DNA from: a virus
Direction: 5' to 3' (one strand)
Virus record (IMG/VR): IMGVR_UViG_3300042691_031577
Location: 46,142 to 110,141 of that record
DNA: 64,000 bases
Position numbers and translations under genes: made by a program. A model generated the notes under the pieces. The model did no database searches, was not told the origin of the DNA, and worked only from the letters and a program-made list of their open reading frames with translations. This document shows positions 44,255-62,130 of the stretch, one piece after another; positions within the stretch are counted from its first letter, which is position 1; each line of letters opens with the position of its first letter.

Positions 44255-44372
44255 AGTCAGGTGGCGAAAGGATCGGGATATCCCGGTCGTGGTAGACGCA
44301 GGTCGTAGGTAGCACCGTTTGCAAACAGCCTTAACGTGGTAAACATTACAGGTTCGAATCCTGTCCTGACTA
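44255..44372 (+). tRNA. tRNA-like element 1 (118 nt, enlarged D arm)
   Basis: Acceptor AGTCAGG / CCTGACT with discriminator A, T arm ACAGG-TTCGAAT-CCTGT. The D arm starts GCG and ends GGTAGACGC as in tRNA-Leu, but holds an extra self-complementary insert (CGGGATATCCCG). The anticodon arm cannot be drawn with a normal 5-bp stem and 7-nt loop, so no isotype is assigned. Lone plus-strand element. Confidence 0.6.
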
Positions 44373-44745
44373 CAATATAAGTATATACTTTTGTCGACAC
44401 AAAAAGATCGTTTAAAAGAGTTCTTTGACATCTTGCAAAATTTCCCAAAAGGGGTTAGTCCGAAAATGCGAACGCAAAAATTGGAGATATACGTATATAC
44501 TGTCGATGGCGAAGAGGTGTTTGCGAGTTGTGAATACGTCACATTAAATTTTGTACCAACATCATCCCGCGCATGGACCGCGGCTAGCATGGGGACAGAT
44601 CGCTATTAGATCGCCGGCGGGCCGCTATCGCCTGCACTTCCCTAGATCTCTTTTGCCCGGCGGGTGATTTTTTATCGAGCGCGCTAGCTCGCGTAAATAT
44701 TGCTTTATACTAGCACACCTGCGATCATATGCGATAGAGACAAAA
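44373..44745 (+). other. GC-rich plus-strand segment with a possible 72-residue gene
   Basis: Visibly richer in G and C than its surroundings, with several short palindromes (GATCGCCGGCGGGCC, GAGCGCGCTAGCTCGCG). A TTG-start reading frame at 44391-44609 encodes DRLKEFFDILQNFPKGVSP then KLEIYVYTVDGEEVFA, protein-like but unproven. A weak CCCGGCGGG hairpin with a T run lies at 44656-44673. Probably acquired DNA. Confidence 0.4.
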
Positions 44746-44775
44746 GAGCGCATGCTTTTATGTTCGCATGCGCTC
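44746..44775 (-). terminator. 10-bp hairpin terminator
   Basis: GAGCGCATGC / GCATGCGCTC with a 10-nt loop; on the minus strand TTTT follows. Ends the transcript of the gene starting at 45195. Confidence 0.65.
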
Positions 44776-44799
44776 AATCGTTTAAACCGTATGTTCTTA

Positions 44800-45195
44800 T
44801 TATCCGAATATAATGTCTTGATAGAATACGGTCTGCAGCATTACATCAGCTGTTTCCGCATCATCATTTTCAGTAATCATATTCGTCAGATGTTCTATTG
44901 GTGTCTGAGCTACTCTCTCATGAACGTCCGATAGATCAATTGTACTATTCATTTCACCATCACCTTCTTCATCTATTATAGTTAATGATTTACCTAAACG
45001 AAGTACCTCTAATAAAACATCCTCGTAACAGATTCCTTGATCGGGATTCTTTGATTTGAGGCTCTGCTTAGCGGCTTGATAATCTTGCTCATCTGTTTCT
45101 AAGATGAGACCGTAGCCTGAAATGTAAGACAATCCGTTACATAATGCATTGTGGAACATTTCTTCTGATTCTTGTGGTGTTAAAATTATTTTCAT
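44800..45195 (-). CDS. Acidic protein, function unknown
   Basis: Start taken at the ATG at 45195 (MKIILTPQESEEMFHNALC), since the early-type promoter lies at 45218-45241 and would exclude the longer frame to 45282. 131 residues, Asp/Glu-rich, mixed alpha/beta. First gene of the accessory region. Not recognised. Confidence 0.68.
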   Translation of the reverse strand: MKIILTPQESEEMFHNALCNGLSYISGYGLILETDEQDYQAAKQSLKSKNPDQGICYEDVLLEVLRLGKSLTIIDEEGDGEMNSTIDLSDVHERVAQTPIEHLTNMITENDDAETADVMLQTVFYQDIIFG

Positions 45196-45217
45196 TTGTT
45201 TGTTAATTATTATGAGA

Positions 45218-45249
45218 TAAAGATAGTGGACGAGCTTTGCCCGTCCACT
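45218..45249 (-). promoter_or_regulatory. Hairpin plus early-type promoter
   Basis: GGCAAA (45236-45241), 10-nt spacer, TATCTTTA (45218-45225); overlapping AGTGGACG/CGTCCACT hairpin (45225-45249). Confidence 0.6.
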
Positions 45250-45369
45250 TTTCCTTAAAACAACTAAACAATAATCAAACAAACAATCAATTATTAAACA
45301 TTATGAAATTGAATTTCGGTGTGATAAATGCTACTATAGCTAAGTTTTCCGGATCCGCTATTATTTTTA

Positions 45370-45585
45370 TCATTGCATTAGCCCTTTCATTCTTAGGATC
45401 TGATGTCTTAATTTCTCGATCTCCTCTTTCTGCTCGCCCATAATCATAAAACACATAAATGTAATTGCCATCATCAATACTAAGAAACCAATGATAAAAT
45501 CTTGATCGCTTTGTGCTTTAACAAACATTAAATACAGTGAGATAAAGCCTAATACTACACTGATAATTCCGTTTAAAATTTTCAT
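45370..45585 (-). CDS. Small two-helix membrane protein
   Basis: 71 residues: hydrophobic helices at ~6-22 and ~31-50, then a charged coil (EQKEEIEKLRHQILRMK). Early-type promoter at 45610-45633. Holin-like size, but role unknown. Confidence 0.65.
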   Translation of the reverse strand: MKILNGIISVVLGFISLYLMFVKAQSDQDFIIGFLVLMMAITFMCFMIMGEQKEEIEKLRHQILRMKGLMQ

Positions 45586-45609
45586 ATCGTTTTGTTTTTA
45601 ATTGTGATG

Positions 45610-45638
45610 TAAAGGTAAGTGGCGAGCTTTGACTCGCC
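45610..45638 (-). promoter_or_regulatory. Hairpin plus early-type promoter
   Basis: GTCAAA (45628-45633), 10-nt spacer, TACCTTTA (45610-45617); GGCGAG/CTCGCC hairpin at 45621-45638. Confidence 0.6.
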
Positions 45639-45644
45639 AAACAA

Positions 45645-45833
45645 TTAGTACATTTGATTTTTACAAAAGCGAGTAGTTCGGAATTTTGATTTACTCGTTG
45701 AACAAGAAGACATTACCGCAATACCTAGTATAAGTAAAACCCATACTACAAATAAAGCTTTAGCTTTGAATTGATGATTTTTTGTTACTTCGAAATCACC
45801 GTTCTCTAATTTTGTTACGTTAAAATCTGACAT
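45645..45833 (-). CDS. Small single-helix membrane protein
   Basis: 62 residues. A membrane helix ALFVVWVLLILGIAVMSSC at 26-44 with a basic Cys-containing C-terminus. Not a classical lipobox because the helix is internal. Function unknown. Confidence 0.6.
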   Translation of the reverse strand: MSDFNVTKLENGDFEVTKNHQFKAKALFVVWVLLILGIAVMSSCSTSKSKFRTTRFCKNQMY

Positions 45834-45857
45834 AATATTTTTGTTTTAATTGTGATA

Positions 45858-45889
45858 TAAATGTAATAAAAAAGGCTCTGACGAGCCTT
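45858..45889 (-). promoter_or_regulatory. Hairpin plus early-type promoter
   Basis: GTCAGA (45877-45882), 11-nt spacer, TACATTTA (45858-45865). AAGGCTC/GAGCCTT hairpin (45872-45889) with loop GTCA, followed by a T run: a clear terminator-promoter joint. Confidence 0.6.
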
Positions 45890-45895
45890 AAATAA

Positions 45896-46075
45896 TTAAC
45901 CTTGAATCATTATTCCGTTTTCAAATATAACCCAAGCATAATTTGAATAATGATCATTGGGTTCCATTAACTCTAACTCAGTTAGAACATCATTTAATTC
46001 TTCTCTAGTACATGTAGTAGTTAAATTAGAATAAATGTCACTTGGATTTGGGAAAATTAGATAAGTGTTTTTCAT
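45896..46075 (-). CDS. 59-residue acidic protein
   Basis: ATG 46075 to TAA 45896: MKNTYLIFPNPSDIYSNLTT, then REELNDVLTELELMEP and YAWVIFENGIMIQG. Own early-type promoter. Not recognised. Confidence 0.6.
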   Translation of the reverse strand: MKNTYLIFPNPSDIYSNLTTTCTREELNDVLTELELMEPNDHYSNYAWVIFENGIMIQG

Positions 46076-46094
46076 ATCGTTATTAATTGTGATA

Positions 46095-46123
46095 TAAAAA
46101 TAAATGGGTAGTCTTGACTACCC
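46095..46123 (-). promoter_or_regulatory. Hairpin plus early-type promoter
   Basis: GTCAAG (46113-46118), 10-nt spacer, TATTTTTA (46095-46102); GGGTAG/CTACCC hairpin at 46106-46123. Confidence 0.6.
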
Positions 46124-46132
46124 AAATATTAA

Positions 46133-46366
46133 TTAATAATCTAAATTAAATGTAATGACTTTAGGTCCTATATACTTACCTTCATCATCGAAGATATCAT
46201 CATCGTCTTCATCAAAATTATCACAACATAAGTCATCGTCTAAATCAATGTCTTCTTCTTGTAATTCTAATTTGACTGTGTAATCAGTAGGATCAGTGTT
46301 TTTTAAACATATTACTGTTTCTGGATCTTGTTGAGATAGTATCTCAATTAATTCTTTTACTTTCAT
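46133..46366 (-). CDS. Very acidic 77-residue protein
   Basis: Central run EEDIDLDDDLCCDNFDEDDD; about 25 acidic residues. Opening MKVKELIEILSQQDPETVIC is a common small-phage-protein start. An acidic DNA mimic is possible, unproven. Confidence 0.65.
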   Translation of the reverse strand: MKVKELIEILSQQDPETVICLKNTDPTDYTVKLELQEEDIDLDDDLCCDNFDEDDDDIFDDEGKYIGPKVITFNLDY

Positions 46367-46390
46367 TGTTTTATTTATTTAATTGTGATG

Positions 46391-46414
46391 TAAATATAAA
46401 CAACGAATTTTGAC
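46391..46414 (-). promoter_or_regulatory. Early-type promoter
   Basis: GTCAAA (46409-46414), 10-nt spacer, TATATTTA (46391-46398), upstream of the ATG at 46366. Confidence 0.55.
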
Positions 46415-46424
46415 TAAACAACAA

Positions 46425-46586
46425 TTATTTCAATCGATATTGAAGTGTATCATTTACATTGTACTTAGCTGTGCTATAAACAGTGTATGTTAAGGTATCA
46501 TTCGCTGATTTAGCCTCATACTGGAAACTACCATTGCTGTACCCACAGCATGATATTATGATTATTTTTGCTATTAATATTTTCAT
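46425..46586 (-). CDS. 53-residue secreted/lipoprotein-like peptide, paralog A
   Basis: MKILIAKIIIISCCGYSNGS: hydrophobic signal with Cys-Cys-Gly, possibly a lipobox. The remainder (FQYEAKSANDTLTYTVYSTA, KYNVNDTLQYRLK) is closely similar to the 54-residue protein at 52468-52632, a duplicated pair. Function unknown. Confidence 0.65.
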   Translation of the reverse strand: MKILIAKIIIISCCGYSNGSFQYEAKSANDTLTYTVYSTAKYNVNDTLQYRLK

Positions 46587-46598
46587 GATATAAAGATA

Positions 46599-46787
46599 TT
46601 ATCCTTTACCTTCTTCATAGATATCATAACTAGGATCATTATCATTTTCTTCTAGTTCTTGATCTAGAGACAAAAAATCACCTTTGAGTGCTTTATCTAA
46701 AGCTTCTTCTTCATTGTTTGCTTCAACAACATAAGTGTAAATAGACGTTATAGGTCTAATTTCATTTACAATAAATCTTTTTGACAT
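46599..46787 (-). CDS. 62-residue acidic protein
   Basis: MSKRFIVNEIRPITSIYTYV then EANNEEEALDKALKGDF, a beta-hairpin plus helix typical of tiny phage proteins. Early-type promoter at 46811-46834. Not recognised. Confidence 0.62.
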   Translation of the reverse strand: MSKRFIVNEIRPITSIYTYVVEANNEEEALDKALKGDFLSLDQELEENDNDPSYDIYEEGKG

Positions 46788-46810
46788 AGTATTTTTATTT
46801 AATTGTGATG

Positions 46811-46834
46811 TAAAAATAACAAAAAAATCTTGAC
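46811..46834 (-). promoter_or_regulatory. Early-type promoter
   Basis: GTCAAG (46829-46834), 10-nt spacer, TATTTTTA (46811-46818), directly after a terminator. Confidence 0.6.
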
Positions 46835-46840
46835 AAACAA

Positions 46841-46869
46841 CAAAAAAAGCGCCTCATTTCTGAGACGCT
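46841..46869 (-). terminator. Intrinsic terminator of the AT-hook gene
   Basis: 9-bp stem with one mismatch (46848-46856 / 46861-46869), loop of 4, then seven T on the minus strand. Confidence 0.75.
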
Positions 46870-46896
46870 CTGTCTAATAAAAAACAACTATAACAA

Positions 46897-47292
46897 TCAA
46901 GAAACAACTTCTGCTTTAACTACCTTAGGCCTACCCGGTTTGATCTGAATACCGGCTGCTAGCTTCTCAGCGCGCGCCTGCATTCTTTGTTGACGGGCTG
47001 ATCCCTCTACAGCTGGCCTACCTCTGCGCAACAAACCTTCTTCACGCAAACGAGTTTTTTCAGCAATACGAATCTGTCTAGGTGAATTTGGATCCACCGG
47101 TCTACCTTTTTTCTTGGTAACACCCTCGTTTGTGATGTTGATGACAACATTCTCAGTTTGGGGTTCCACCTCTTGTTTGCCTGCGATTGCAGCTTCGATT
47201 TCGGCTTTTTTCATTCCGGTAATGTCAATACCTAATGATTTTGCTTCTGCTTTCATTGCGTTGAATAACGCTAATCCGTTTTGATTTTTCAT
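46897..47292 (-). CDS. AT-hook DNA-binding protein with SAP/HeH-like N-terminus
   Basis: 131 residues. Residues 1-38 resemble a short helix-extended loop-helix domain (GIDITGMKKAEIEAAI). Three GRP hooks follow: KKKGRPVDP, RRGRPAVE and KPGRPKV. AT hooks bind the minor groove of AT-rich DNA. A second protein (48631-48894) shares the hook-plus-RQQRMQARAEKLAAG repeat unit. Possibly shapes phage or host DNA, or controls transcription. Confidence 0.82.
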   Translation of the reverse strand: MKNQNGLALFNAMKAEAKSLGIDITGMKKAEIEAAIAGKQEVEPQTENVVINITNEGVTKKKGRPVDPNSPRQIRIAEKTRLREEGLLRRGRPAVEGSARQQRMQARAEKLAAGIQIKPGRPKVVKAEVVS

Positions 47293-47320
47293 AACCTTTA
47301 TTTTTTTATTAATTGTGATT

Positions 47321-47344
47321 TAAATGTACAAAATTAGTTTTGAC
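47321..47344 (-). promoter_or_regulatory. Early-type promoter
   Basis: GTCAAA (47339-47344), 10-nt spacer, TACATTTA (47321-47328); overlaps the end of the next gene. Confidence 0.55.
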
Positions 47345-47510
47345 CATCAAGTTCTTTTCGCTCAGCAACTAGATACTCGATTTGATCAACAGGCATAGTC
47401 ATGATCAATTGTCTTAACATTTGATCTTCCATCCCTACTTCTCTGATGATGTTTTCCATTGTTTCACCATCTACTTCTTTTAATGCGTTGATAATTTCTT
47501 GTGTGTTCAT
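47334..47510 (-). CDS. 58-residue helical protein
   Basis: MNTQEIINALKEVDGETMEN, then MLRQLIMTMPVDQIEYLVAE. Two helices, acidic. Stop lies inside the next gene's promoter. Not recognised. Confidence 0.6.
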   Translation of the reverse strand: MNTQEIINALKEVDGETMENIIREVGMEDQMLRQLIMTMPVDQIEYLVAERKELDGQN

Positions 47511-47530
47511 AATCGTTTTTATTTATGATA

Positions 47531-47555
47531 TAAAGATAATACAAATAACTGTGCC
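47531..47555 (-). promoter_or_regulatory. Early-type promoter (variant box)
   Basis: GGCACA (47550-47555), 11-nt spacer, TATCTTTA (47531-47538). Confidence 0.45.
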
Positions 47556-47560
47556 TGACA

Positions 47561-47584
47561 CAAAAAAAGCGCTCATAGAGCGCT
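47561..47584 (-). terminator. Intrinsic terminator
   Basis: AGCGCTC/GAGCGCT stem (47568-47584), 3-nt loop, then T7 on the minus strand; ends the 137-residue gene. Confidence 0.75.
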
Positions 47585-47589
47585 TTAAT

Positions 47590-48003
47590 TTAAATTACTT
47601 CGTGCCATCCGTGAACGTTCCAATCTTTTTCTGTTTGACGATTTTCACTGAATTGAGTTAGATCATCTACTAGATAAAGACAACTGTCGCCACTCACGTA
47701 GATGTAGGCTTTGTCTTTAGGTACGGAAAAATCACTATCGATGTGCAAAACGCAATACATATCTTTTTTGATTTTGTATTCTTCTCCGAATATCTCTTTA
47801 CCTATCTTCTTGAGCAATGATTTGAATTCTTGATTGTCTTTTAAAAATTGTTCCCATTGTTTGCCTATACAATCATAACGATTATGCTCGTAATTTAATG
47901 CAGGCAAATTCTCAATTTTGATTAATTCAGTAAATGATAATTTACTTTTTCCGTGACCTAAAAAGGCCTTAGCAGCAGTGCTGCTGTTGATTGCTGTTGT
48001 CAT
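47590..48003 (-). CDS. 137-residue protein, function unknown
   Basis: Starts MTTAINSSTAAKAFLGHGKS; C-terminal half is beta (MYCVLHIDSDFSVPKDKAYI). Followed by a good terminator and preceded by an early-type promoter (48031-48054), so a single-gene unit. Not recognised. Confidence 0.68.
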   Translation of the reverse strand: MTTAINSSTAAKAFLGHGKSKLSFTELIKIENLPALNYEHNRYDCIGKQWEQFLKDNQEFKSLLKKIGKEIFGEEYKIKKDMYCVLHIDSDFSVPKDKAYIYVSGDSCLYLVDDLTQFSENRQTEKDWNVHGWHEVI

Positions 48004-48030
48004 AATTCAAAGAACTTATTAATTGTGATG

Positions 48031-48054
48031 TAAATATAATAAAATTACTTTGAT
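48031..48054 (-). promoter_or_regulatory. Early-type promoter (variant box)
   Basis: ATCAAA (48049-48054), 10-nt spacer, TATATTTA (48031-48038). Confidence 0.5.
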
Positions 48055-48248
48055 CTACCAATATTTCTGAAGCTGCTTCGTTGTTTAAAAAATTTACTGT
48101 CGGACAAAGGAGCCCTCTTTGGAGCTGGAGCCCCAGGCCCTCCAGACCATCCTTCCCTCAGCTTCCCTCTTCTACACGCCGGACAAGGATCCCCAGGATC
48201 GTACGATAAAAATTGCTTAGAGCATTTATTACACTTAGTTCTCACCAT
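48045..48248 (-). CDS. Zinc-ribbon small protein
   Basis: 67 residues. CNKCSKQF and CPACRRGK give a CxxC-CxxC ribbon in the first 28 residues; the rest is basic, Gly/Pro-rich and likely disordered. Possible nucleic-acid or transcription-complex binder. Confidence 0.7.
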   Translation of the reverse strand: MVRTKCNKCSKQFLSYDPGDPCPACRRGKLREGWSGGPGAPAPKRAPLSDSKFFKQRSSFRNIGRSK

Positions 48249-48263
48249 AATACATAATAAAAA

Positions 48264-48283
48264 TGGCGCTCAGATAAGCGCCA
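48264..48283 (-). terminator. Hairpin terminator
   Basis: TGGCGCT/AGCGCCA stem, 6-nt loop, then ATTTTTATT on the minus strand; ends the 78-residue gene. Confidence 0.6.
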
Positions 48284-48291
48284 AAACCGTA

Positions 48292-48528
48292 CTAATAATC
48301 ATCAAATAGATCATCATCCTCATCTACATCGTCCCATACACCTTCTTCGGCGTCCGTCTCTAATTCATCGATCTCTTCTAATTCAGCAATCATGCTATTT
48401 ACTTGCTGACCCATGTATTCTAAGTCAATGTTGGTGATTACGGTATTAGATTCCATCGCTTCATCTAATATGTTATTGATTTCCTCTTCTGCTTTACGCA
48501 GGTGTCTTAATATTTTTTCCTTATTCAT
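48292..48528 (-). CDS. Acidic helical 78-residue protein
   Basis: Helical start (KILRHLRKAEEEINNILDEA) and extremely acidic C-terminus (AEEGVWDDVDEDDDLFDDY). Not recognised; acidic tail hints at binding to a basic surface. Confidence 0.65.
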   Translation of the reverse strand: MNKEKILRHLRKAEEEINNILDEAMESNTVITNIDLEYMGQQVNSMIAELEEIDELETDAEEGVWDDVDEDDDLFDDY

Positions 48529-48583
48529 GGTACAAAATTTTAGATAAATATAATAAAAAGGAATAAAAAAACAAAGAAAAAAC

Positions 48584-48610
48584 CGCCTGCAGGCAAAAAG
48601 TCTACAGGCG
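48584..48610 (-). terminator. Intrinsic terminator of second AT-hook gene
   Basis: CGCCTG/CAGGCG stem, then GTTTTTTC on the minus strand. Confidence 0.6.
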
Positions 48611-48630
48611 ATTTAGGTAAAAAACCGTTA

Positions 48631-48894
48631 CTAAGCAGCAACGGTTTCGGTTTGTTTTTTCGGACGTCCGGGACCTACTTTCTCACCGTTAGCAATACGC
48701 GCTGCGCGATCAGCTAATTTTTGCTGGCGTTTGCTTGTAGTTGATGCTGGACGACCTCTTTTAATTTGATCACCATTAGCGATTCGCTCTGCGCGAGCAG
48801 CTAATACTTGTTGACGCTTTGAACCTTCAACTGTTGGACGACCTTTACGTTTTGATTCTGTTGCAGTAGCAACTGTTGTGTTTTCTGTACTCAT
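48631..48894 (-). CDS. AT-hook protein, paralog
   Basis: 87 residues with three hooks: KRKGRPTVE, KRGRPAST and GPGRPKK, separated by the repeat RQQVLAARAERIANG / RQQKLADRAARIANG. Paralog of the 131-residue AT-hook protein. Early-type promoter at 48929-48952. Predicted AT-rich DNA binder. Confidence 0.82.
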   Translation of the reverse strand: MSTENTTVATATESKRKGRPTVEGSKRQQVLAARAERIANGDQIKRGRPASTTSKRQQKLADRAARIANGEKVGPGRPKKQTETVAA

Positions 48895-48928
48895 AACCTT
48901 TATTATTTATTTTTTAAATTTAACGATG

Positions 48929-48952
48929 TAAATATACGACTTGAGTTTTGCC
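48929..48952 (-). promoter_or_regulatory. Early-type promoter
   Basis: GGCAAA (48947-48952), 10-nt spacer, TATATTTA (48929-48936). Confidence 0.6.
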
Positions 48953-48959
48953 TTCCAAC

Positions 48960-49275
48960 ATTTTTTGTTGCAAAAAATTCGTAGTAAAAAGAAATTGGCT
49001 ACAAGATACAAACAAAAGCTTTGCCAAGCACAAAGATAGCCTGCACAAAAGTGCTAGGTTTTCTAAAAATTTGTTCGTACATTGGTAATCATTTTCTGGA
49101 TTACTACAGTTGCTAAATTGTTTGTTGGTGATTATTGTCTGAACCTACCACAGTTTACATATTTGTTTGTTCGTACTGACTATAACCGTTGGCGGTGCTA
49201 CAAAGGGCTGTGCTACTAGGTTGAGTAACTCACGGGCTACTTAGACGAATTCATCGTTTGAACAACAATAAATAT
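48960..49275 (-). other. Gene-free 320-nt segment, possible structured RNA
   Basis: No reading frame of note on either strand. Bounded upstream by ATATTTAT (49268-49275) and a terminator, downstream by the AT-hook promoter, so a ~300-nt non-coding transcript is possible. Contains short inverted repeats (AGCCTGCAC...GTGCTAGGTT) and less AT bias than usual spacers. No known RNA family recognised. Confidence 0.35.
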
Positions 49276-49280
49276 ACGAG

Positions 49281-49312
49281 AACAAAAAAAGACAACCATT
49301 ACAGTTGTCTTT
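49281..49312 (-). terminator. Intrinsic terminator
   Basis: AAAGACAAC/GTTGTCTTT stem (49288-49312), 7-nt loop, T7 on the minus strand; ends the gene at 49343. Confidence 0.78.
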
Positions 49313-49342
49313 CCTTAACTAAATTTGCGCGTTTGCTTTGCG

Positions 49343-49606
49343 TTATCTGTGCGGCTTATATTCCTTCGCCATCCTATCCGCTCCTAATCCTTCATACTTA
49401 AGTAATGCGTTAGCAATATACATTTGAAAACGTTGAATTGTTTTACATTCATTAATTGCTTTTAAAATTGACTGTTTGTCTTTGTCGTTGATGTTTTTTG
49501 ACTGAACAAATTCGATTGTGTTTTGCTTTGCAAAATTCAGATCGGCTGTGTTGAATACTACTTCTGAAATCTGTTCAAAAATAGACTTGATTTGTACTTT
49601 TGACAT
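49343..49606 (-). CDS. 87-residue helical protein
   Basis: KVQIKSIFEQISEVVFNTAD; helical throughout, basic C-terminus. Has promoter and terminator of its own. Not recognised. Confidence 0.65.
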   Translation of the reverse strand: MSKVQIKSIFEQISEVVFNTADLNFAKQNTIEFVQSKNINDKDKQSILKAINECKTIQRFQMYIANALLKYEGLGADRMAKEYKPHR

Positions 49607-49626
49607 GTTGTTTGTTGTTTATGATG

Positions 49627-49650
49627 TAAATGTAGGCAAAAAATCTTGCC
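49627..49650 (-). promoter_or_regulatory. Early-type promoter
   Basis: GGCAAG (49645-49650), 10-nt spacer, TACATTTA (49627-49634). Confidence 0.6.
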
Positions 49651-49971
49651 AAAACAACAAAAAAGAACAAAAAGAACGTAAAAAATTGGTACAAAATGCG
49701 TGAAAAGTATATCTGGATATATGGTCGAGTTGTAAGATGGGTGTTGGTGTGTACAATTTTCTCGATCTGCACCAATTCATCACCACCAATCACCACAACT
49801 CATTCCACCCATCACCCTAATCTTATTTTTCGAGCGCCCGAAACTCTCTTTTCAATTTCCCTACACTCTAGTTTTTGTCATCCGTTACTACCTTTTCGTA
49901 TCACCTAACCTCCATTACCTTCAGCGCCACTTTGCGCATCTTTAGTGCATCTAACACATTTGTTATTTTAG
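49651..49971. other. Gene-free 320-nt segment
   Basis: Pyrimidine-rich on the plus strand, with no convincing gene. The frames that cross it give low-complexity Thr/Ser/His strings. No terminator or strong repeat seen. Ends at tRNA-like element 2. Confidence 0.5.
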
Positions 49972-50054
49972 TAGTCAGGACAGGATTCGAACCTGCTTTA
50001 GGGCTTACGACCTATGATATTCTATTTACGACAACACCATGTCGCCACCTGACT
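49972..50054 (-). tRNA. tRNA-like element 2 (83 nt)
   Basis: Acceptor AGTCAGG/CCTGACT, discriminator A, D arm GCGAC-ATGGTGTT-GTCGT, T arm GCAGG-TTCGAAT-CCTGT. The 32-nt centre offers only a TAGG/CCTA stem with an 8-nt loop, so the anticodon cannot be placed. Length would fit a long-variable-arm class (Leu/Ser). 17 nt after the 50072 gene, so likely cotranscribed. Confidence 0.6.
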
Positions 50055-50071
50055 ATTTTATTATTCTGGAT

Positions 50072-50263
50072 TTATATTATTCTCCATTTAAATTCATTTG
50101 TTTGTCCTATCTCATCTCCCACATCATTACTCCAAAGTATCAACATAGTATTTTCCTTATCATTTAACAATGATTTGAACCATTCCAATTCTTCCACATC
50201 ATTGTGGCTATACCACAACTCATCATCTATTTCTATTTCACACTCTATTTTTAGTTTTGCCAT
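50072..50263 (-). CDS. Small acidic protein
   Basis: Start at 50263 (MAKLKIECEIEIDDELWYSH) keeps the overlap with the upstream gene short. 63 residues; beta strands with WFKSLLNDKENTMLILW. Not recognised. Confidence 0.6.
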   Translation of the reverse strand: MAKLKIECEIEIDDELWYSHNDVEELEWFKSLLNDKENTMLILWSNDVGDEIGQTNEFKWRII

Positions 50264-50495
50264 AGGTTTCGTTGTAATATTGTTCAAATTCTTCTTTATG
50301 AAACTTTAATGAATTTTCTCCATTAACATAGTTCTTTTTAATATATTCAAACATCTCTTCCTTCTCCATTGCTTTGGCTTGTTGGAATTCTTCTTTAAAA
50401 GCTACATAAAAAGACATGGCAATAAAACTATCACTATCTTTTGTGGCTATTTTTTCCATTAACCATTCTACTGCTGTCTGTTTTTTATTTTCCAT
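50238..50495 (-). CDS. Small conserved helical phage protein
   Basis: Start at 50495 (MENKKQTAVEWLMEKIATKD) is the usual opening of a family common in Bacteroidota phages; longer start at 50534 is possible. 85 residues, helical, with FEYIKKNYVNGENSL then HKEEFEQYYNETYG. Function unknown. Confidence 0.7.
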   Translation of the reverse strand: MENKKQTAVEWLMEKIATKDSDSFIAMSFYVAFKEEFQQAKAMEKEEMFEYIKKNYVNGENSLKFHKEEFEQYYNETYGKTKNRV

Positions 50496-50505
50496 TGTTA
50501 CCTCC

Positions 50506-50697: not shown

Positions 50698-50703
50698 TGT
50701 TAT

Positions 50704-52193: not shown

Positions 52194-52300
52194 TAGTCAG
52201 GACAGGATTCGAACCTGTATGCGTAACTTTCTTGGCCCCTCCCCAATGGCACGCTGTCCACTCGTTAATATAAGCGTCTAACCAATTCCGCCACCTGACT
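52194..52300 (-). tRNA. tRNA-like element 3 (107 nt, Leu-like D arm)
   Basis: Acceptor AGTCAGG/CCTGACT, discriminator A, T arm ACAGG-TTCGAAT-CCTGT. D arm GCGGAATTGGTTAGACGC is nearly that of bacterial tRNA-Leu. The middle (~58 nt) is too long and pairs as ACGCT/AGCGT around 17 nt, with a further GCC...GGC stem, instead of a normal anticodon arm. An insertion is possible. Confidence 0.6.
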
Positions 52301-55451: not shown

Positions 55452-55455
55452 GATT

Positions 55456-55479: not shown

Positions 55480-55493
55480 TTCCAAAATATATT

Positions 55494-55802: not shown

Positions 55803-56029
55803 TTATTTAAACTATTAGAAATACCACATTTGTGTTTATGTTGAACATACCATAATATCCTAAATGTCCCTAAAACAAAAAAGTAAGTATCAAATTCATT
55901 TATCTCATCTGTTGATTTACATATACCTGTATGGTAAGCTGGTATTTTTGTTTTAATAGTCTTAGCTGATTTAGGGAAAGTTTCAAATGATATACTATAT
56001 CGCTTTGTTAATTTGAATGATTTATACAT
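55799..56029 (-). CDS. 76-residue basic protein
   Basis: KSFKLTKRYSISFETFPKSA; YHTGICKSTDEINEFDTYFF. Three Cys, beta-rich. 3 nt from the next gene. Not recognised. Confidence 0.6.
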   Translation of the reverse strand: MYKSFKLTKRYSISFETFPKSAKTIKTKIPAYHTGICKSTDEINEFDTYFFVLGTFRILWYVQHKHKCGISNSLNK

Positions 56030-56032
56030 AAT

Positions 56033-56284
56033 TTACTTATTGTTATTAAATTTATAAATATAAGTTGTATCACATTTACCATCAACACATTCAATTTTTA
56101 TTGATGGTGTGATTTGTTTTTTAATTTCAAATGATTGCTTATCATTCCAACCCACATACATACTTAATATTACTAACGCAAATAAAGCAAATATAAATGT
56201 TCCTATATAATCATTATATCTATCTATAATAAACATTGCTATAAGTAAACATACTAATACAAATACTATTATTAATTCTATCAT
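56033..56284 (-). CDS. Small membrane protein
   Basis: Start at 56284 (MIELIIVFVLVCLLIAMFII) overlaps the previous stop by 4 nt (ATGA). 83 residues; two membrane helices, then a soluble tail with CVDGKC. Not recognised. Confidence 0.62.
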   Translation of the reverse strand: MIELIIVFVLVCLLIAMFIIDRYNDYIGTFIFALFALVILSMYVGWNDKQSFEIKKQITPSIKIECVDGKCDTTYIYKFNNNK

Positions 56285-56526
56285 AATTTTTCTATTTCTT
56301 GTTTTACCAATTGCCAATAATGCATTACCATATCTTCATTTACCAAATTGAATTTTAGTAGCACATTCCTTTCTGCTTTTTCTATTTCATCTACTGCTAT
56401 TAAAGCACATTGTTTTACTCTTTGATTACTACCACCCAATGCAGTATCCAAAACAACTAAATTATATTTTTGAATCAGCTCTATTGCTTTTTCTCTCGGT
56501 GTCATAATCTCTTTTAATTTTTTCAT
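56281..56526 (-). CDS. Small helical phage protein
   Basis: Core PREKAIELIQKYNLVVL; RVKQCALIAVDEIEKAERNV; a recurrent small phage protein type. An ATG at 56505 is an equally good start. Overlaps the next upstream gene substantially. Confidence 0.65.
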   Translation of the reverse strand: MKKLKEIMTPREKAIELIQKYNLVVLDTALGGSNQRVKQCALIAVDEIEKAERNVLLKFNLVNEDMVMHYWQLVKQEIEKL

Positions 56527-56725
56527 TTATCGCCTCAGCGATGAATTTACCTACTTCATCCTGAAATTTAGCAGCCTCATCTTCTGTATCAAATTCATGT
56601 TGTAAAGCACCCCAACCTCTAACTTCTCCAATCATTTGACTCCCACCATCATCATCTTGTTTACTCCATAGGTACTGACCAAATGGATCATAATAAACAT
56701 CTTTAAGCCATTCTTTTAATTTCAT
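56462..56725 (-). CDS. 87-residue protein
   Basis: MKLKEWLKDVYYDPFGQYLW, then FDTEDEAAKFQDEVGKFIAE. Looks like a folded alpha/beta protein; 4-nt overlap with the upstream gene supports the start. Not recognised. Confidence 0.65.
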   Translation of the reverse strand: MKLKEWLKDVYYDPFGQYLWSKQDDDGGSQMIGEVRGWGALQHEFDTEDEAAKFQDEVGKFIAEAINEKIKRDYDTERKSNRADSKI

Positions 56726-57018
56726 ATTTCAACTTCATATTTTGTATGTGGATAATAATCTAAACAATACACTTTAACCTTATCTTTTATAATCTCACCT
56801 CCAAATAAAAACTCATACTCATAATATCCCTCATAAGCATCACCATATTTAGATTGGTAAGGTATAAATCCTAAACATTTTGCTGTTTCATCTTTACCTA
56901 TACCATACCATTCATCTAATGCTAATCTTAAATCTCCAAATGTTGATGCTGTTGTTAATGGTATATTTTCATCTGAATCAACTGCTAAGTATGTTACTTT
57001 AATTCTTGTTTGTTTCAT
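56722..57018 (-). CDS. 98-residue protein
   Basis: RIKVTYLAVDSDENIPLTTA; YYEYEFLFGGEIIKDKVKVY: beta-rich. Overlaps both neighbours by 4 nt. Not recognised. Confidence 0.65.
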   Translation of the reverse strand: MKQTRIKVTYLAVDSDENIPLTTASTFGDLRLALDEWYGIGKDETAKCLGFIPYQSKYGDAYEGYYEYEFLFGGEIIKDKVKVYCLDYYPHTKYEVEI

Positions 57019-57344
57019 AATTTATTCAAATCTTCTTTTAATCGTCTTAAAAATGATTCTTCACCATCATCACCACTCACCAACCAATCTATTCGTTGAG
57101 CATAGATTTCAGCTTTTCTAAGTATGTCTAATCCCTCTTTAAACTTATCAATTACTTCATCAGAGTATTTATGATGATACAATTCATTGGGGTGTCGTTC
57201 ATAAAAATCATCTCCATACCATCGTTGATTTTCTTTAATCAACTCATCATCTATTTTCTTACCATTCTTTTCAATAAGTCGTTCTACACTATCAGCTATT
57301 TCTCTGATACGGTATTGATTATAATCAAAATGTCCTCCACTCAT
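57015..57344 (-). CDS. Conserved 'MSGGHFDYNQY' phage protein
   Basis: 109 residues. MSGGHFDYNQYRIREIADSV is the signature opening of a family found in many phages; helical with YAQRIDWLVSGDDGEESFL. Function unknown. Early-type promoter at 57365-57388. Confidence 0.78.
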   Translation of the reverse strand: MSGGHFDYNQYRIREIADSVERLIEKNGKKIDDELIKENQRWYGDDFYERHPNELYHHKYSDEVIDKFKEGLDILRKAEIYAQRIDWLVSGDDGEESFLRRLKEDLNKL

Positions 57345-57364
57345 ATTATTATTTTCTTACATTG

Positions 57365-57388
57365 TAAATGTAACAAACTTATTTTGAT
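57365..57388 (-). promoter_or_regulatory. Early-type promoter (variant box)
   Basis: ATCAAA (57383-57388), 10-nt spacer, TACATTTA (57365-57372). Confidence 0.5.
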
Positions 57389-57966
57389 GAGCCAAATCTC
57401 ATTTTTAAATTTTCTCTATTAATCATATCCTTTAATATTGAAACATAATTAGGATTCTCAGCGTATGATTGAGATAAATAATCAAAATACAGTTCTTCAG
57501 TTGTAATGTTTGATAGATATTTACATTGATAAAATGAGTAATCTAAAACTGATTCATACCATGTATGATAATAAGCATGGTTATTTTCAGTTCCTTTAGC
57601 AGTTGTTATACGTTGATGTGCTTCACGCATACCGAACAGATTATTATTTTCCCTAAATACTTTACTTGTAAAATTACCTGTTTCAAGTTTTGCTTGAGCT
57701 AATACTATGTGAGGGAATTTAATGTTTAATTCTTTTAGTTTTTCAATTAATTTGTCTTCTGAGAATTTATTATACTCTTGAATAACAATCAATTTTTCTT
57801 CCTCAGATAAACTGAGTAAAACATTTTTACCCAATTTATAGCCTGAGTAAAATAAAATAGAACCTAATACTGTTGTCACAATAATAGTGATGACAATAAT
57901 TTTACCTACTACATTAATTGGTTTTGGTTGTAGTGTTTTGGGATCAATTCTAAAGATGTTTTTCAT
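57379..57966 (-). CDS. Membrane-anchored glucosaminidase (GH73-like) cell-wall hydrolase
   Basis: Start at 57966 (MKNIFRIDPKTLQPKPINVV), just after the early promoter module; the longer frame to 58047 would run through it. 195 residues. Membrane anchor ~20-43, then PHIVLAQAKLETGNFTSKVF (Glu 95, catalytic) and ENNNLFGMRE, with YHTWYESVLDYSFYQ. Cleaves peptidoglycan glycan strands; likely a signal-anchored endolysin, or a host-wall remodeller. Confidence 0.85.
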   Translation of the reverse strand: MKNIFRIDPKTLQPKPINVVGKIIVITIIVTTVLGSILFYSGYKLGKNVLLSLSEEEKLIVIQEYNKFSEDKLIEKLKELNIKFPHIVLAQAKLETGNFTSKVFRENNNLFGMREAHQRITTAKGTENNHAYYHTWYESVLDYSFYQCKYLSNITTEELYFDYLSQSYAENPNYVSILKDMINRENLKMRFGSSK

Positions 57967-57980
57967 ATTATTTGTTTTTA

Positions 57981-58010
57981 TAAAGATAATAAAGGGGCTT
58001 TGACAGCCCC
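57981..58010 (-). promoter_or_regulatory. Hairpin plus early-type promoter
   Basis: GTCAAA (57999-58004), 10-nt spacer, TATCTTTA (57981-57988); loop of a GGGGCT/AGCCCC hairpin (57994-58010) directly after the RNA ligase stop. Confidence 0.65.
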
Positions 58011-58015
58011 TATCT

Positions 58016-59176
58016 TTAGTGTGAATCTCCAACATCATGTTTTTCACTCCAAATTAAATAATCTGGGTTAATACACTTGTACACTTTATTTCGTTCTCCT
58101 GATGTATGTTTAATAACAATACCTTCATGTGGTACTTTAGTATCTTCAATATTATTATTGAATGTATATTTGTCTTGCATTTCTTGATTCCAATAACCTA
58201 TATATAAAACAGGTACGTGTGGTAAATCAATACCACCGATAAAATCAAAAGCCTTCCCAGCCATTGTGTAGTAAGTTTGCTCAGTAGATAAATAATTACC
58301 ATTCCATATAATATCAAACCCAGCAAACTCTAATTCTTTTAATCCGTAATCATAATTCTTTTGAATACCAGGACCATATATCTCACCATAAACCACTATC
58401 CCATTTCCAATTTCTGATGGTTTATGATTTTTAACAAACGCCCATAATTTATTTTTAATGTCGTATTTTTCAGCTACTGTTCTCCATACGTCTGTATCAT
58501 AGAAACCTTGTGAGTCACTACCTTTTTCTACATTATGAGAACCATAAACATATTCATAGTCAATCCATTTATCAGCTAAACCAAAGAATTTCTTTAACTT
58601 ATCCCAGAATGATAATTTATTTTTCTTAACAATACCATAACGAGCATTAGTACCATGTAACTTACGGGTGATTTGAACTTCATCTTCTTCAGTAAACATA
58701 CCGCTAACATTTTTAGCATTAGGAAATTTATAGTATACTTGGAAGTTTGGATTCTGGTGGTATTTAATTTTACGACCTGAAGACAATTGTACTTGTACTG
58801 CTGGTGGTTCGTATTTATAGATTTTAAATAAATCCATCATATCAGCACCTTCAGCCCATTTAGCTTTAGGATGTGTTAATTTCTCAGCATATCTAAATGG
58901 AATAATTAAACATTCACTATATACTCCTCTCAATTTAACAGTACGTACACGTTGACCTTTTCTTAAATAATTAGTCACGCCCATACTATCTGATAACTCT
59001 TGAGGTATAACAGCATCGGTAGTAGCTATGATTACTAAATCACCTACACTGTATTCACCTTTTTTAGTAATACAATTCCATCCACCAGCAACAACTTGTT
59101 CAATGTTGTCTGCACCTGGGATTGGTTTTACTTCGTTGATTGTTGTAACATAACAAACACTATTATTATTTTCCAT
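58016..59176 (-). CDS. RNA ligase (Rnl5/DRB0094-like)
   Basis: 386 residues. N-terminal OB-like domain (~1-120), then nucleotidyltransferase motif I ITRKLHGTNAR (Lys 172, nucleophile), motif III-like VVYGEIYGPGIQ, motif IV HEGIVIKH and motif V NKVYKCIN. The domain order with an N-terminal OB fold matches Rnl5-type ligases. Likely mends broken tRNA or other RNA, relevant to the tRNA-like elements nearby. Confidence 0.88.
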   Translation of the reverse strand: MENNNSVCYVTTINEVKPIPGADNIEQVVAGGWNCITKKGEYSVGDLVIIATTDAVIPQELSDSMGVTNYLRKGQRVRTVKLRGVYSECLIIPFRYAEKLTHPKAKWAEGADMMDLFKIYKYEPPAVQVQLSSGRKIKYHQNPNFQVYYKFPNAKNVSGMFTEEDEVQITRKLHGTNARYGIVKKNKLSFWDKLKKFFGLADKWIDYEYVYGSHNVEKGSDSQGFYDTDVWRTVAEKYDIKNKLWAFVKNHKPSEIGNGIVVYGEIYGPGIQKNYDYGLKELEFAGFDIIWNGNYLSTEQTYYTMAGKAFDFIGGIDLPHVPVLYIGYWNQEMQDKYTFNNNIEDTKVPHEGIVIKHTSGERNKVYKCINPDYLIWSEKHDVGDSH

Positions 59177-59202
59177 AACTTAAAGTTTTATTTCAAATCT
59201 AT

Positions 59203-60285
59203 TTACTCATAAGAATCTCTATCAATTTTAATTACATATGGAAATCTTGGAACACCATCAGGTGTTAAATTAAAATACTTAACTGTTGCTTGTTTACCTA
59301 TTAATGTGTCTTTTTGTTTCCACATTTCAGTACATTCTTCCCAATTGAATTTAGGTGAGGCATTAAATCGTTTACCATCTTTATTTTCAAATACAAATGA
59401 TCCTATCATACCTGTTTTATTACCACCACCTTCTTCAATATCAAGTATAGTATATTCTTCATCAATAAATGATTTATGTTTGAGTAATGATTTAGAACGT
59501 TTGTTTTCATATTCATTATCTAAACGAATCATTTGACCTTCATAACCTTGTTCAACATACTCAAAATAATAATTTTCTATATCTTCATCATCAAAACATT
59601 GATGAGTATCAACTAATACACAACATTCAGGTAATTGTAAACTCCACAATTTATTATATCTATCTGAAAATACTCCACTATATGAAGGTAAATCATAAAT
59701 GTGATACTGGATTGATTCAGCGCTTTTTTCTAAATCTTGTGCTGTTGGTTTAGTTTTCTTAACTAACGAGCATATAGCATTGAAATCATTTGCGAATTTA
59801 TCTGCGTATAACTCGCCGTCAAATATAAGGTCAGGGTTTGTGTCAAATAATGAAGACAACGCGTTAAAAATGTGAGGAGCCGATATAATCTTCTTACCAT
59901 TTCTACTCCACATACCGTCTGCTCTTACAATACAACGAATACCATCTAATTTAGGTTGTGAGTAAACTGGGTATTTGATTTTACTTTTATAATCATTGAA
60001 GTCTTGTGCTAACATTGGTTTGAAGAACACAGGTGTGTCGATGTCGTTTATATTTTCAAACGAACCTAATTCAATACGTTTACGATGTATTGCTTGTGCT
60101 TCTTTAAGTGCTTGCTCTTCTGCTGTGCAATATGATTTGGCTTCACAACACGTCCATTCACTTGTTGTTTTAATACCATCAGTATAACCTGATATTGTTC
60201 TATAGCAGTTATTCTCAACTTCAATAGTCCATTGAGTAACTTTACCTGTTGTTGATCGTTTGTATAGTGTGTTTAATAGTACCAT
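59203..60285 (-). CDS. ATP-dependent DNA ligase
   Basis: 360 residues. N-terminal ~75 residues resemble a WGR-type domain (TQWTIEVENNCYRTISGY). Motif I YSQPKLDGIRCIV (Lys 112), motif III FDGELYA, motif IV EGQMIR, motif V SKSLLKHK, then a C-terminal OB fold (NKTGMIGSFVFENKDG). Seals nicks during phage replication. Confidence 0.92.
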   Translation of the reverse strand: MVLLNTLYKRSTTGKVTQWTIEVENNCYRTISGYTDGIKTTSEWTCCEAKSYCTAEEQALKEAQAIHRKRIELGSFENINDIDTPVFFKPMLAQDFNDYKSKIKYPVYSQPKLDGIRCIVRADGMWSRNGKKIISAPHIFNALSSLFDTNPDLIFDGELYADKFANDFNAICSLVKKTKPTAQDLEKSAESIQYHIYDLPSYSGVFSDRYNKLWSLQLPECCVLVDTHQCFDDEDIENYYFEYVEQGYEGQMIRLDNEYENKRSKSLLKHKSFIDEEYTILDIEEGGGNKTGMIGSFVFENKDGKRFNASPKFNWEECTEMWKQKDTLIGKQATVKYFNLTPDGVPRFPYVIKIDRDSYE

Positions 60286-60286
60286 A

Positions 60287-60568
60287 TTAATTACTTGCTC
60301 TATGTGGTTGATTATCGTTTACGTTTTCAGTTGTTTTTGGTGGTGGAGGTGGTGGTGTTGATTCTTTAGATTTTATAATAAAGTAAAATTTATCATTATT
60401 TTCTAATCCGTACTCTGCCACTTCATATATATCCAAATCAACTACTTTACGTTCATGTATTAAAAAACGAGCTATAATATCAATACGCTCTGTACCTTGA
60501 AGTTCATAAGTGACTTTTGTTTTTTTATCTTTATAAAACAAACTAATAAATCTTTTACCCCAATCCAT
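60287..60568 (-). CDS. Small protein with poly-Pro tail
   Basis: 93 residues. Beta-rich domain (KTKVTYELQGTERIDIIARF) and tail STPPPPPPKTTE. 1 nt from the DNA ligase gene. Not recognised. Confidence 0.65.
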   Translation of the reverse strand: MDWGKRFISLFYKDKKTKVTYELQGTERIDIIARFLIHERKVVDLDIYEVAEYGLENNDKFYFIIKSKESTPPPPPPKTTENVNDNQPHRASN

Positions 60569-60583
60569 AACCTTTATTTTTAA

Positions 60584-60790
60584 TTAATTAAGGAAATCTA
60601 ATATAATTTCCTTGCCAAAAGAACCTCTTTTGATCGTCTCAAATTGCTCGATGTTAGTAAGTGGTTTGGCATCAGATAATTCAAATGACCATCTAAATTT
60701 ACCTCCGTTATGTAGCCCAGCAAAATAACCATCATCGCTTATCACAATAAATTCTTTGGGTGGAATCCATTTTTTACGTTTCTTTACCAT
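60584..60790 (-). CDS. 68-residue basic protein
   Basis: KKRKKWIPPKEFIVISDDGY; beta-rich, ends KEIILDFLN. Overlaps the 233-residue gene by 7 nt. Not recognised. Confidence 0.62.
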   Translation of the reverse strand: MVKKRKKWIPPKEFIVISDDGYFAGLHNGGKFRWSFELSDAKPLTNIEQFETIKRGSFGKEIILDFLN

Positions 60791-61485
60791 CTGCTGCCTT
60801 TTAGTTGACCTTCTGTTATCTCAGCATTCAAATATAATATAACATTATCTGTTAGTTTTTTAAGTGCTTGTGCTCTTTCTTCTATCTCAATCCTTAGCTC
60901 AGCACCATATTTTTCTAATAAACGTTCTTTAGCCATTTCCTTTAATTCAGGTATTGGTCTTAGTTCATCGGCCCAACGTGCAATTAAATACTTATCACAT
61001 ATTGATTCTGTGGTACCATAGTAATCAAAACCTACAGTCTCAGCATAGTTTTTAGCTTGTTCACTTGAATCAAACAACATATCTTTATTGTTTGTATCTT
61101 TAAGACGATTATATGATTTATTGTATGGAGTCCATTTTTGTACATAACCTACAGCAAATGGATCAGGTGATTTATCATCATACCATATTTCAATTTTAGT
61201 GAAATGTTTTTCTTTTACTGAGTATCCTATTTGCCTAAGTACCTCAAGAGGTATAGTTGTTTTACTATACGTCTTAAAATCAGTACTTGCAGGACATAAT
61301 GTTTTAAAAATAAGATTCATTGAATTGTTAATGTGAGGATATGGAATAGGTGATTCTGCTTTTCTAACAAAATCTAATTGAGATTCCATCCCCAATTCAT
61401 TAGCTAACTCTTTCCATTCATCTAATGCTTCAATTTGAAACATGATGTCATTTAATTCTTCGTTTTGGTAAATTTGTACGGCCAT
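60784..61485 (-). CDS. 233-residue protein, function unknown
   Basis: Helical N-terminus, a central mixed domain (KIEIWYDDKSPDPFAVGYVQ), and a C-terminal coiled coil (ELRIEIEERAQALKKLTDNV). Early-type promoter at 61500-61523. Not recognised; could be an adaptor protein. Confidence 0.7.
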   Translation of the reverse strand: MAVQIYQNEELNDIMFQIEALDEWKELANELGMESQLDFVRKAESPIPYPHINNSMNLIFKTLCPASTDFKTYSKTTIPLEVLRQIGYSVKEKHFTKIEIWYDDKSPDPFAVGYVQKWTPYNKSYNRLKDTNNKDMLFDSSEQAKNYAETVGFDYYGTTESICDKYLIARWADELRPIPELKEMAKERLLEKYGAELRIEIEERAQALKKLTDNVILYLNAEITEGQLKGSRW

Positions 61486-61499
61486 AACATTTATTTTTG

Positions 61500-61523
61500 T
61501 AAATATAAGTAAAGTATTTTGCC
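61500..61523 (-). promoter_or_regulatory. Early-type promoter
   Basis: GGCAAA (61518-61523), 10-nt spacer, TATATTTA (61500-61507). Confidence 0.6.
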
Positions 61524-61525
61524 TA

Positions 61526-61795
61526 CTATAATCCTTTTTTCGAAAGATGTTTTAATGTTTCTAAATCATCATTACTAATGAATCTTCTATTATCCCATAC
61601 TTTATCAAGTATATCAGCTAATTCTTTTTCTAAATTAGTTTGAGGTATTCTACTTTCCCAAATAGCAACCTCAGCATTAAGTTCTTTAGGTATAATACCT
61701 TCCTCATATAACGCCTCAGCCATTTCTTGTTTTTCATACTTAGACATATCCCACATCAAATCGTCTATGTCTATGTCAACTGTGATACTTGCCAT
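61526..61795 (-). CDS. 89-residue acidic protein
   Basis: MASITVDIDIDDLMWDMSKY then EKQEMAEALYEEGIIPKELN. Helical; adjacent to a membrane protein gene 1 nt away. Not recognised. Confidence 0.65.
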   Translation of the reverse strand: MASITVDIDIDDLMWDMSKYEKQEMAEALYEEGIIPKELNAEVAIWESRIPQTNLEKELADILDKVWDNRRFISNDDLETLKHLSKKGL

Positions 61796-61796
61796 A

Positions 61797-62048
61797 CTAT
61801 GCTTCTCCTTTTATTTTATTGTGATTATATAATTTATTTAATTGTTCAATTTCAGATGCTTCTTTAAGTGCTTGAACTAGTGTCATATGAGCAATCATTA
61901 TGTTTCTGATGTCCTCATTCTGACGAGATTGTTCTTCACTTATTGCATTTAATTCACTATTAATTTTATTAATGTGTATTACACAATATATCGCAAGCGA
62001 GGTAACTATCGCTAATAATGTTGAGAGAATTGTTATCGCTATAATCAT
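61797..62048 (-). CDS. Small membrane-anchored coiled-coil protein
   Basis: 83 residues. One membrane helix (ITILSTLLAIVTSLAIYCVI, 4-23), then a coiled coil (INKINSELNAISEEQSRQNE). Upstream of it lies tRNA-like element 4. Not recognised. Confidence 0.65.
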   Translation of the reverse strand: MIIAITILSTLLAIVTSLAIYCVIHINKINSELNAISEEQSRQNEDIRNIMIAHMTLVQALKEASEIEQLNKLYNHNKIKGEA

Positions 62049-62061
62049 ATTTTGATGTTAG

Positions 62062-62130
62062 TAGTCAGGACAGGAATCGAACCTGTGTCTCCCATACCAA
62101 TATGGGGCGTTACCACTACGCTACCTGACT
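62062..62130 (-). tRNA. tRNA-like element 4 (69 nt)
   Basis: Closest to a normal tRNA: acceptor AGTCAGG/CCTGACT, discriminator A, D arm GCGT-AGTGGTA-ACGC, T arm ACAGG-TTCGATT-CCTGT. The anticodon arm is CCCAT-ATTGGT-ATGGG, a 6-nt loop (or 4 bp with an 8-nt loop), so the anticodon is uncertain; UGG is possible. 3-4 nt shorter than usual. Confidence 0.65.

Follow-up and report, generated by a model that had tools for sequence, protein, structure and literature searches.

The window analysed here, a stretch of 64,000 nt, is part of a 110,141-base IMG/VR virus record (IMGVR_UViG_3300042691_031577) encoding a T4-like portal and terminase, and contains four tRNA-like elements built on one shared acceptor stem and one shared T arm. 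The elements had been pointed out in a first-pass annotation made from the sequence alone, and all four were recovered at the places given there with lengths of 118, 83, 107 and 69 nt. The T-arm word occurs exactly four times in the window (0.07 expected, 0 of 100 shuffled sequences reaching four), each copy is flanked by AGTCAGG/CCTGACT, and the complete record contains the same four copies and no further ones.

The four elements of the window

Element 1 (44255-44372, plus strand) lies antisense to the local genes and is 118 nt long including the discriminator A (A73, position 44372). Its acceptor stem is formed by 44255-44261 and 44365-44371, while the sequence places the D arm at 44264-44299, the centre at 44300-44347 and the T arm at 44348-44364. 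The insert noted earlier in the D arm proved to be a hairpin module in the D loop (44271-44288, 7 bp including one U-G pair, with an ATAT loop), and in the centre a helix is formed between GTTTGC (44317-44322) and GTAAAC (44339-44344). In another contig, L310, the same centre is combined with a plain D loop lacking the hairpin, and the helix is compensated to GTTCAC/GTGAAC. Element 2 (49972-50054, minus strand, 83 nt) has a centre at 49997-50027 with the hairpin TAGG[TCGTAAGC]CCTA, which is almost invariant across other phage contigs, and its D stem shows compensated forms (GCGAC/GTCGT, GCTAC/GTAGT).

In element 3 (52194-52300, minus strand, 107 nt) the centre (52219-52273) consists of two helices without an anticodon arm; this centre is common to 40 contigs, with covariation seen in the acceptor, T and centre helices. 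Element 4 (62062-62130, minus strand, 69 nt) is the nearest of the four to an ordinary tRNA, having a G15-C48 Levitt pair and a stem-loop at 62091-62106, and an identical copy is present in contig L249. Its anticodon arm is abnormal, as had been proposed, with a loop of 6 nt on a 5-bp stem, and elements 1-3 have no canonical anticodon stem-loop.

When the window was run through ARAGORN only element 4 was called, as "tRNA-???" (anticodon undefined), and the Rfam tRNA model gave 56.8 bits for element 4, 36.1 for element 3, 26.9 for element 2 (under the cut-off of 29) and no match for element 1, so that the folding models do not return four ordinary tRNAs, the alternative the first-pass annotation had raised. 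No Rfam family besides tRNA matched the window's elements, and neither the ARAGORN tmRNA search nor Rfam revealed a tmRNA in the window.

The tRNA shell and its exchangeable centres

A search with the exact 23-base 3' part of the elements matched at least 119 IMG/VR stretches, and further scans gave a main set of 420 unique copies in about 280 contigs, in which copies cannot be counted as independent when their contigs are related. Measured between the two acceptor strands, most copies span 70-160 nt (median 104, overall 53-181), apparent lengths of up to 259 nt being two neighbouring copies joined. The copies retain a shell of acceptor stem (7 bp), T arm, D arm and tRNA elbow contacts, that is, those parts of a functional elongator tRNA, and in the place of the anticodon arm they carry a structured centre, an arrangement that corresponds to an RNA domain set on a tRNA scaffold with the acceptor, T and D arms kept.

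The fold was examined in two alignments. The 40 contigs behind the first (A3) were retrieved with nothing but the centre of element 3; in the 22 of them that were aligned, 99.6% of the cells are paired over the acceptor, D and T stems and two centre helices, and 10 of 23 pairs are changed on both sides (0 of 500 shuffles). The second (A5) represents another family, fetched via part of the D arm plus centre, with 99.7% of the cells paired and 9 of 22 pairs changed on both sides (0 of 500 shuffles); its acceptor stems differ and still pair (AGTCAGG/CCTGACT, AGCAAGG/CCTTGCT, GATCGGA/TCCGATC) and its centre helix shows three pair types at two positions. Among all copies the Levitt contact 15-48 covaries, with A-U in 316, G-C in 12, G-U in 4 and A-C in 17 (p = 1.4e-11; 1.3e-9 when each family is represented by a single copy), U8-A14 is retained in 342 of 413 and the GG of the D loop in 378 of 413, and 36 of 44 variant 5' acceptor words still pair through G-U. 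The RNA is, as far as pairing can be read from sequence, a tRNA elbow with a foreign domain in the position of the anticodon arm, because the covariation is present in alignments free of the shell query, the Levitt pair covaries and the acceptor changes preserve pairing by G-U.

Between the D stem and the T stem, where a class I tRNA has about 22 nt, the median among the family representatives is 53 nt, and 64% of them exceed 45 nt. Of 157 copies whose D arm is of the tRNA-Leu type, 0 have a canonical anticodon arm at the correct place, which makes it unlikely that these are working tRNAs escaping anticodon nucleases, one of the roles first proposed. In 5 of 223 family representatives (0.7 by chance) the D arm is followed at once by a 5-bp stem closing a 7-nt loop. 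ARAGORN accepts 84 of the 420 copies, 22 of these with an undefined anticodon. Ordinary, decayed or intron-bearing tRNAs were judged a poor fit in view of the rarity of canonical anticodon arms together with the conserved and compensated centres.

Clustering of the 420 copies gave 287 centre families, and the Chao1 estimate of about 900 is a rough one from a biased sample. The centres are more structured than shuffled sequences (mean z -0.68 ± 0.07) and within families their mean identity is 0.91. At the 3' end identity is 0.95 at position 73 and 1.00 at C74, falling to 0.42 at position 75, and on the 5' side it is about 0.7 at -1 and -2 and about 0.35 farther out, so the drop lies outside -2 and 74. 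In 51 of 58 families a pair of copies with both flanks unrelated is present. Judged by these limits, the unit common to the phages is exactly the RNA gene. Several copies carry an extra module in the D loop; one such module may be found with different centres, and one centre with or without the module. Some centres (in L035, L024, L264, L265, L026, L205 and L096) hold a second T-arm-like hairpin (e.g. GGTTCGAATCC), and such an RNA would carry two T arms.

Fifty pairs of copies have flanks that are homologous up to the element on both sides, and in 41 of these the centres belong to different families, with flanks 97-99% identical in some cases (L288/L322, L064/L177). When counted per locus and inspected, replacement of the centre was seen in at least 8 of about 14 loci, and two small groups turned out to be one centre split by the clustering. 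One of these sites, locus A, was surveyed with an upstream 20-mer that includes the promoter sequence TAnnTTTG and no shell sequence. The scan gave 53 stretches, of which three are truncated where the contig stops and one matches unrelated DNA by chance. In all 49 evaluable contigs the shell AGTCAGG/CCTGACT (once CCTGACG) starts three bases past the 20-mer, and these contigs, with a median upstream DNA identity of 89%, carry 14 unrelated centre families, 8 of which were also seen elsewhere. Among pairs with upstream DNA at least 95% identical the centre differs in 3 of 32. Locus A lies between the terminase and tape-measure genes, a spot where accessory genes driven by a promoter of their own are typically found, and the features of a moron gene, namely a host-type promoter of its own, exchangeable alleles and a site in the structural gene module, were all found there.

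Expression signals, neighbourhood and distribution

The sequence TAnnTTTG, which we take to be the -7 box of Bacteroidota hosts at its usual position, closely precedes 29 copies (2.9 expected), most commonly at -12, and from there transcription would start at or beside nucleotide 1. Other copies are situated between operon genes. U occupies -1 in 83% of the copies; among 707 ordinary tRNAs on these contigs the figure is 70%, and the background is 32%. An ordinary tRNA gene is situated within 1 kb of 37% of the copies, compared with 23% of random positions. C74 without an encoded CCA is shared by the elements and the ordinary phage tRNAs, and C74 was accordingly dropped as a special mark of the elements. 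The elbow is the reference point from which both RNase P, bound to the T-stem/acceptor stack, and the CCA-adding enzyme measure (PMC4919913). We infer that the phage RNAs would mature along this route, with cleavage by RNase P, processing of the 3' end and addition of CCA, to which U at -1, C74 and the elbow contacts point indirectly. Processing, as suggested in the first-pass annotation, is likely.

Two further upstream features were observed. Just before several elements, in 9 of 405 upstream regions, there is a hairpin in the leader with the form GACAGCTYGGAAAGACRAGC, whose loop is about GGAAAGA and whose stem is apparently compensated, for instance at about 1955-1985 in L353 and upstream of elements in L182, L190 and L211. 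A repeated sequence of about 65 nt, ATTCTCATTTTTTATCTACGTTCTTAGTTCTTA..TTTACAGTATCAAA, is present in L353 (about 2060-2125, 2800-2862, 3485-3551 and 4630-4670), L305 and L355 ahead of elements and small open reading frames (ORFs), and looks like a phage promoter.

Among contigs longer than 100 kb, 41 of 42 contain matches at three mismatches or fewer, up to 14 each and often clustered (a reversed control pattern gave 0), and the densest cluster holds 12 copies within 3.4 kb. A search of the genomes of 84,980 species of bacteria and archaea matched only 8 contigs, most of them from Bacteroidota bins, and all 8 matches are tRNA-like and none is an ordinary host tRNA, in agreement with the earlier view that the family is tRNA-like, phage-specific and abnormal in its centres. 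The copies are mostly from metagenomic contigs, and the promoter and the binning point to Bacteroidota as hosts. The sequence of the element 3 type had no full-length match among 50,697 phage records, and a comparison of 24 centres with phage records yielded a single record, a metagenomic one, which is a complete podovirus-like genome of 60.9 kb from spring water; there the centre sits in a different, compensated shell (AGTGCAG/CTGCACT). No isolated phage carrying the family came up in these searches. No description of such elements was found in the literature searched, which was confined to open access with few subscription papers or bioRxiv preprints, and the elements apparently constitute a widespread and undescribed family of phage RNA genes. 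In an isolated phage, Tenacibaculum phage pT24 (L363), two near-identical genes annotated as tRNA-Undet, with an abnormal anticodon arm, are located at 5790-6236 together with an odd "tRNA-Pro" ending in CAGGTTCGAATCCTGTCTTGACC, and the pT24 genes are a possible cultured relative of the family.

Among the neighbouring genes of the window, the RNA ligase (58016-59176, minus strand; phrog_968, PF09414), which the first-pass annotation had pointed out, is probably outside the system, a PF09414 ligase being present in just 14 of 38 large element-bearing contigs (12 above the cut-off) whereas terminase, taken as yardstick, was found in 26 of 38. At 12015-13370 (minus strand), inside the T4-like structural gene region, a protein of 451 aa shows N-terminal matches to FAD/NAD-dependent oxidoreductase families. 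Two observations concern other contigs. In L356 a match to the Rfam freshwater-1 RNA (5473-5534, minus strand; 70 bits, cut-off 72) lies shortly upstream of, and outside, another AGTCAGG tRNA-like element, and this orphan RNA family may come from phages carrying the elements. In L010, which also holds two elements, a tmRNA (49.2 bits) is followed directly by a group I intron (97.8 bits; together 7609-8193, minus strand), and the intron may lie within a phage tmRNA gene or at its end.

Interpretation and comparison with known systems

The fold, the conserved and exchangeable centres and the host-type promoters ending at nucleotide 1 are all read from sequence, and the explanation that we consider probable is that the elements are small structured RNAs carried as cassettes on a tRNA scaffold, with the centre as effector and with maturation by the tRNA enzymes of the host. 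The shell would be the carrier: reading its acceptor-T stack and elbow, the RNase P, 3' processing and CCA-adding enzyme of the host would excise the RNA from the transcript, shield it and maintain it at a high level. The effector would be the centre that occupies the anticodon-arm position, at times joined by another module in the D loop, and recombination via the conserved shells would exchange centres between phages in the manner of allelic accessory ("moron") genes. The effector could be a decoy, an inhibitor or a regulator directed against variable factors of the host or of rival phages, with defence, counter-defence or exclusion as the most likely setting; effectors in conflict with variable partners are suggested because the carrier and promoter are constant while the structured core is exchangeable, replaced in place and widely shared. 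We infer that the centres may serve counter-defence, superinfection exclusion or host modulation. A decoy role, as originally proposed, is possible, and the interpretation in the first-pass annotation is as a whole partly supported. More tentatively, the phages, apparently of Bacteroidota, could hold a large natural library of tRNA-shelled RNA effectors (decoys, inhibitors or aptamers), made and protected by host tRNA enzymes and swapped in place, as an RNA counterpart of allelic anti-defence and exclusion genes.

Several results weigh against the explanation by RNA cassettes. A minority of the copies resemble ordinary tRNAs, with a clear type, tRNA-Lys(UUU), in L018, L044 and L255. The 420-copy set was fetched by an exact T-arm/acceptor query and the conservation of its shell is partly by construction, a bias absent from the centre-anchored alignments A3 and A5 and from the survey with the promoter 20-mer, which cover three loci or families only. 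Antisense matches of the four elements to the whole 110-kb record, and of 165 other copies to their own loci, are no longer than in shuffles, and antisense RNAs on the phage's own genes were rejected on these match lengths. The centres show no significant resemblance to rRNA; one family resembles the 530-loop region of 16S rRNA (20 of 23 nt), but the score is within the maxima of the shuffled sets and its relatives lose the match, so rRNA mimicry was rejected as well. Apart from remnants of the D arm almost no short motifs are common to the centres, the largest cluster among 5,457 ORFs in 350 loci is found in only 66 loci and gives no common neighbour gene or protein partner, and the scans revealed no protein partner or target of the centres.

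As tRNAs act as punctuation in mitochondrial transcripts, the shell might be a mere processing or stability signal in phage operons and the centre largely free filler. The placing of the copies is consistent with this, 31% starting no more than 20 nt past a stop codon (7% of random positions), 23% ending within 20 nt before an ATG (14% of random positions) and element 4 lying 13 nt ahead of an ORF start. Centres that are 91% conserved and compensated among phages with unrelated flanks, and copies with a promoter of their own ending at nucleotide 1, are however not expected of filler, ordinary tRNAs would suffice for such a purpose, and we hold this explanation to be unlikely.

Baits or nuclease-proof tRNAs directed against anticodon nucleases or other tRNA-cutting defences would retain the elbow and acceptor and have the anticodon loop missing or altered, as the elements do, and the fast exchange of alleles at locus A would suit an arms race. 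The shell copies no ordinary tRNA of the hosts among the species genomes searched, though, and hundreds of conserved centres are superfluous for a simple bait, while the same phages hold ordinary tRNAs (up to 24 per 10-kb stretch), all of which renders baits rather improbable.

It is also very doubtful that the elements are mobile cassettes or recombination sites at the DNA level, similar to the attC sites that a tyrosine recombinase binds in moving gene cassettes, with an incidental RNA fold. Such sites would have sharp limits like those of the shared unit at -2 and 74, inverted-repeat ends, lengths in the range observed and a tendency to cluster, but the covariation extends to the tertiary contact 15-48 of tRNA, most variant acceptor words preserve pairing through G-U and the promoters are aligned on nucleotide 1; the 350 loci share no gene, integrase-like or other, though no search was aimed at recombinases. 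Hardly credible is that introns or inserts are spliced out, perhaps by the RNA ligase, to give working tRNAs, since inserts at more than one site (D loop and centre) and the ligase gene of the window are countered by the scarcity of 5-bp stems that close where an anticodon stem would stand, barely above chance (14 against 9.0 ± 2.6 expected, a slight excess at most, and absent in most copies), by the inconsistent anticodon, by the conservation of the supposed insert itself and by the limited occurrence of PF09414; splicing or an RNA ligase is not needed.

If the reading as RNA cassettes on a tRNA scaffold is true, the elements form a class of phage non-coding RNAs in which the tRNA fold is a chassis for exchangeable RNA cargo, a class abundant in environmental viromes, almost absent from the annotated phage records searched and accounting for some of the undetermined tRNAs of phage genomes. 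It would offer hundreds of ready-made structured RNAs as candidate inhibitors of bacterial proteins or defences, and would raise the testable question of what selects for replacement of the core in place under a constant shell.

When compared with known systems, the elements resemble ordinary phage tRNAs in the upper half, in the 3' format (N73, C74 and usually no encoded CCA) and in the U at -1, and they are often located near ordinary tRNA genes, but nearly all copies lack a canonical anticodon arm. In tmRNA (SsrA) an ORF for the tag peptide and pseudoknots are placed between the tRNA halves of a molecule of about 350 nt, and like the elements it is a natural tRNA-like domain bearing another functional RNA in the place of the anticodon arm; the elements differ in being far shorter and without a common centre, and those of the window have no tag ORF. 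The vtRNA/TMER RNAs of murine gammaherpesvirus and the bacterial Y-like RNAs (YrlA) are non-coding and use a tRNA-like module for processing or recognition, the tRNA-like part being joined to other RNA, whereas in the phage elements the cargo is inside the tRNA fold and allelic. Closest in design is the engineered tRNA scaffold used for recombinant RNA in E. coli, where the anticodon stem-loop is the insertion region, the insert is embedded and protected and cellular factors recognise the scaffold (PMC3753655). In both cases the acceptor, T and D arms are kept and the inserted RNA replaces the anticodon arm, but the scaffold is man-made, while the phage elements, with hundreds of insert families exchanged, would be its natural counterpart.

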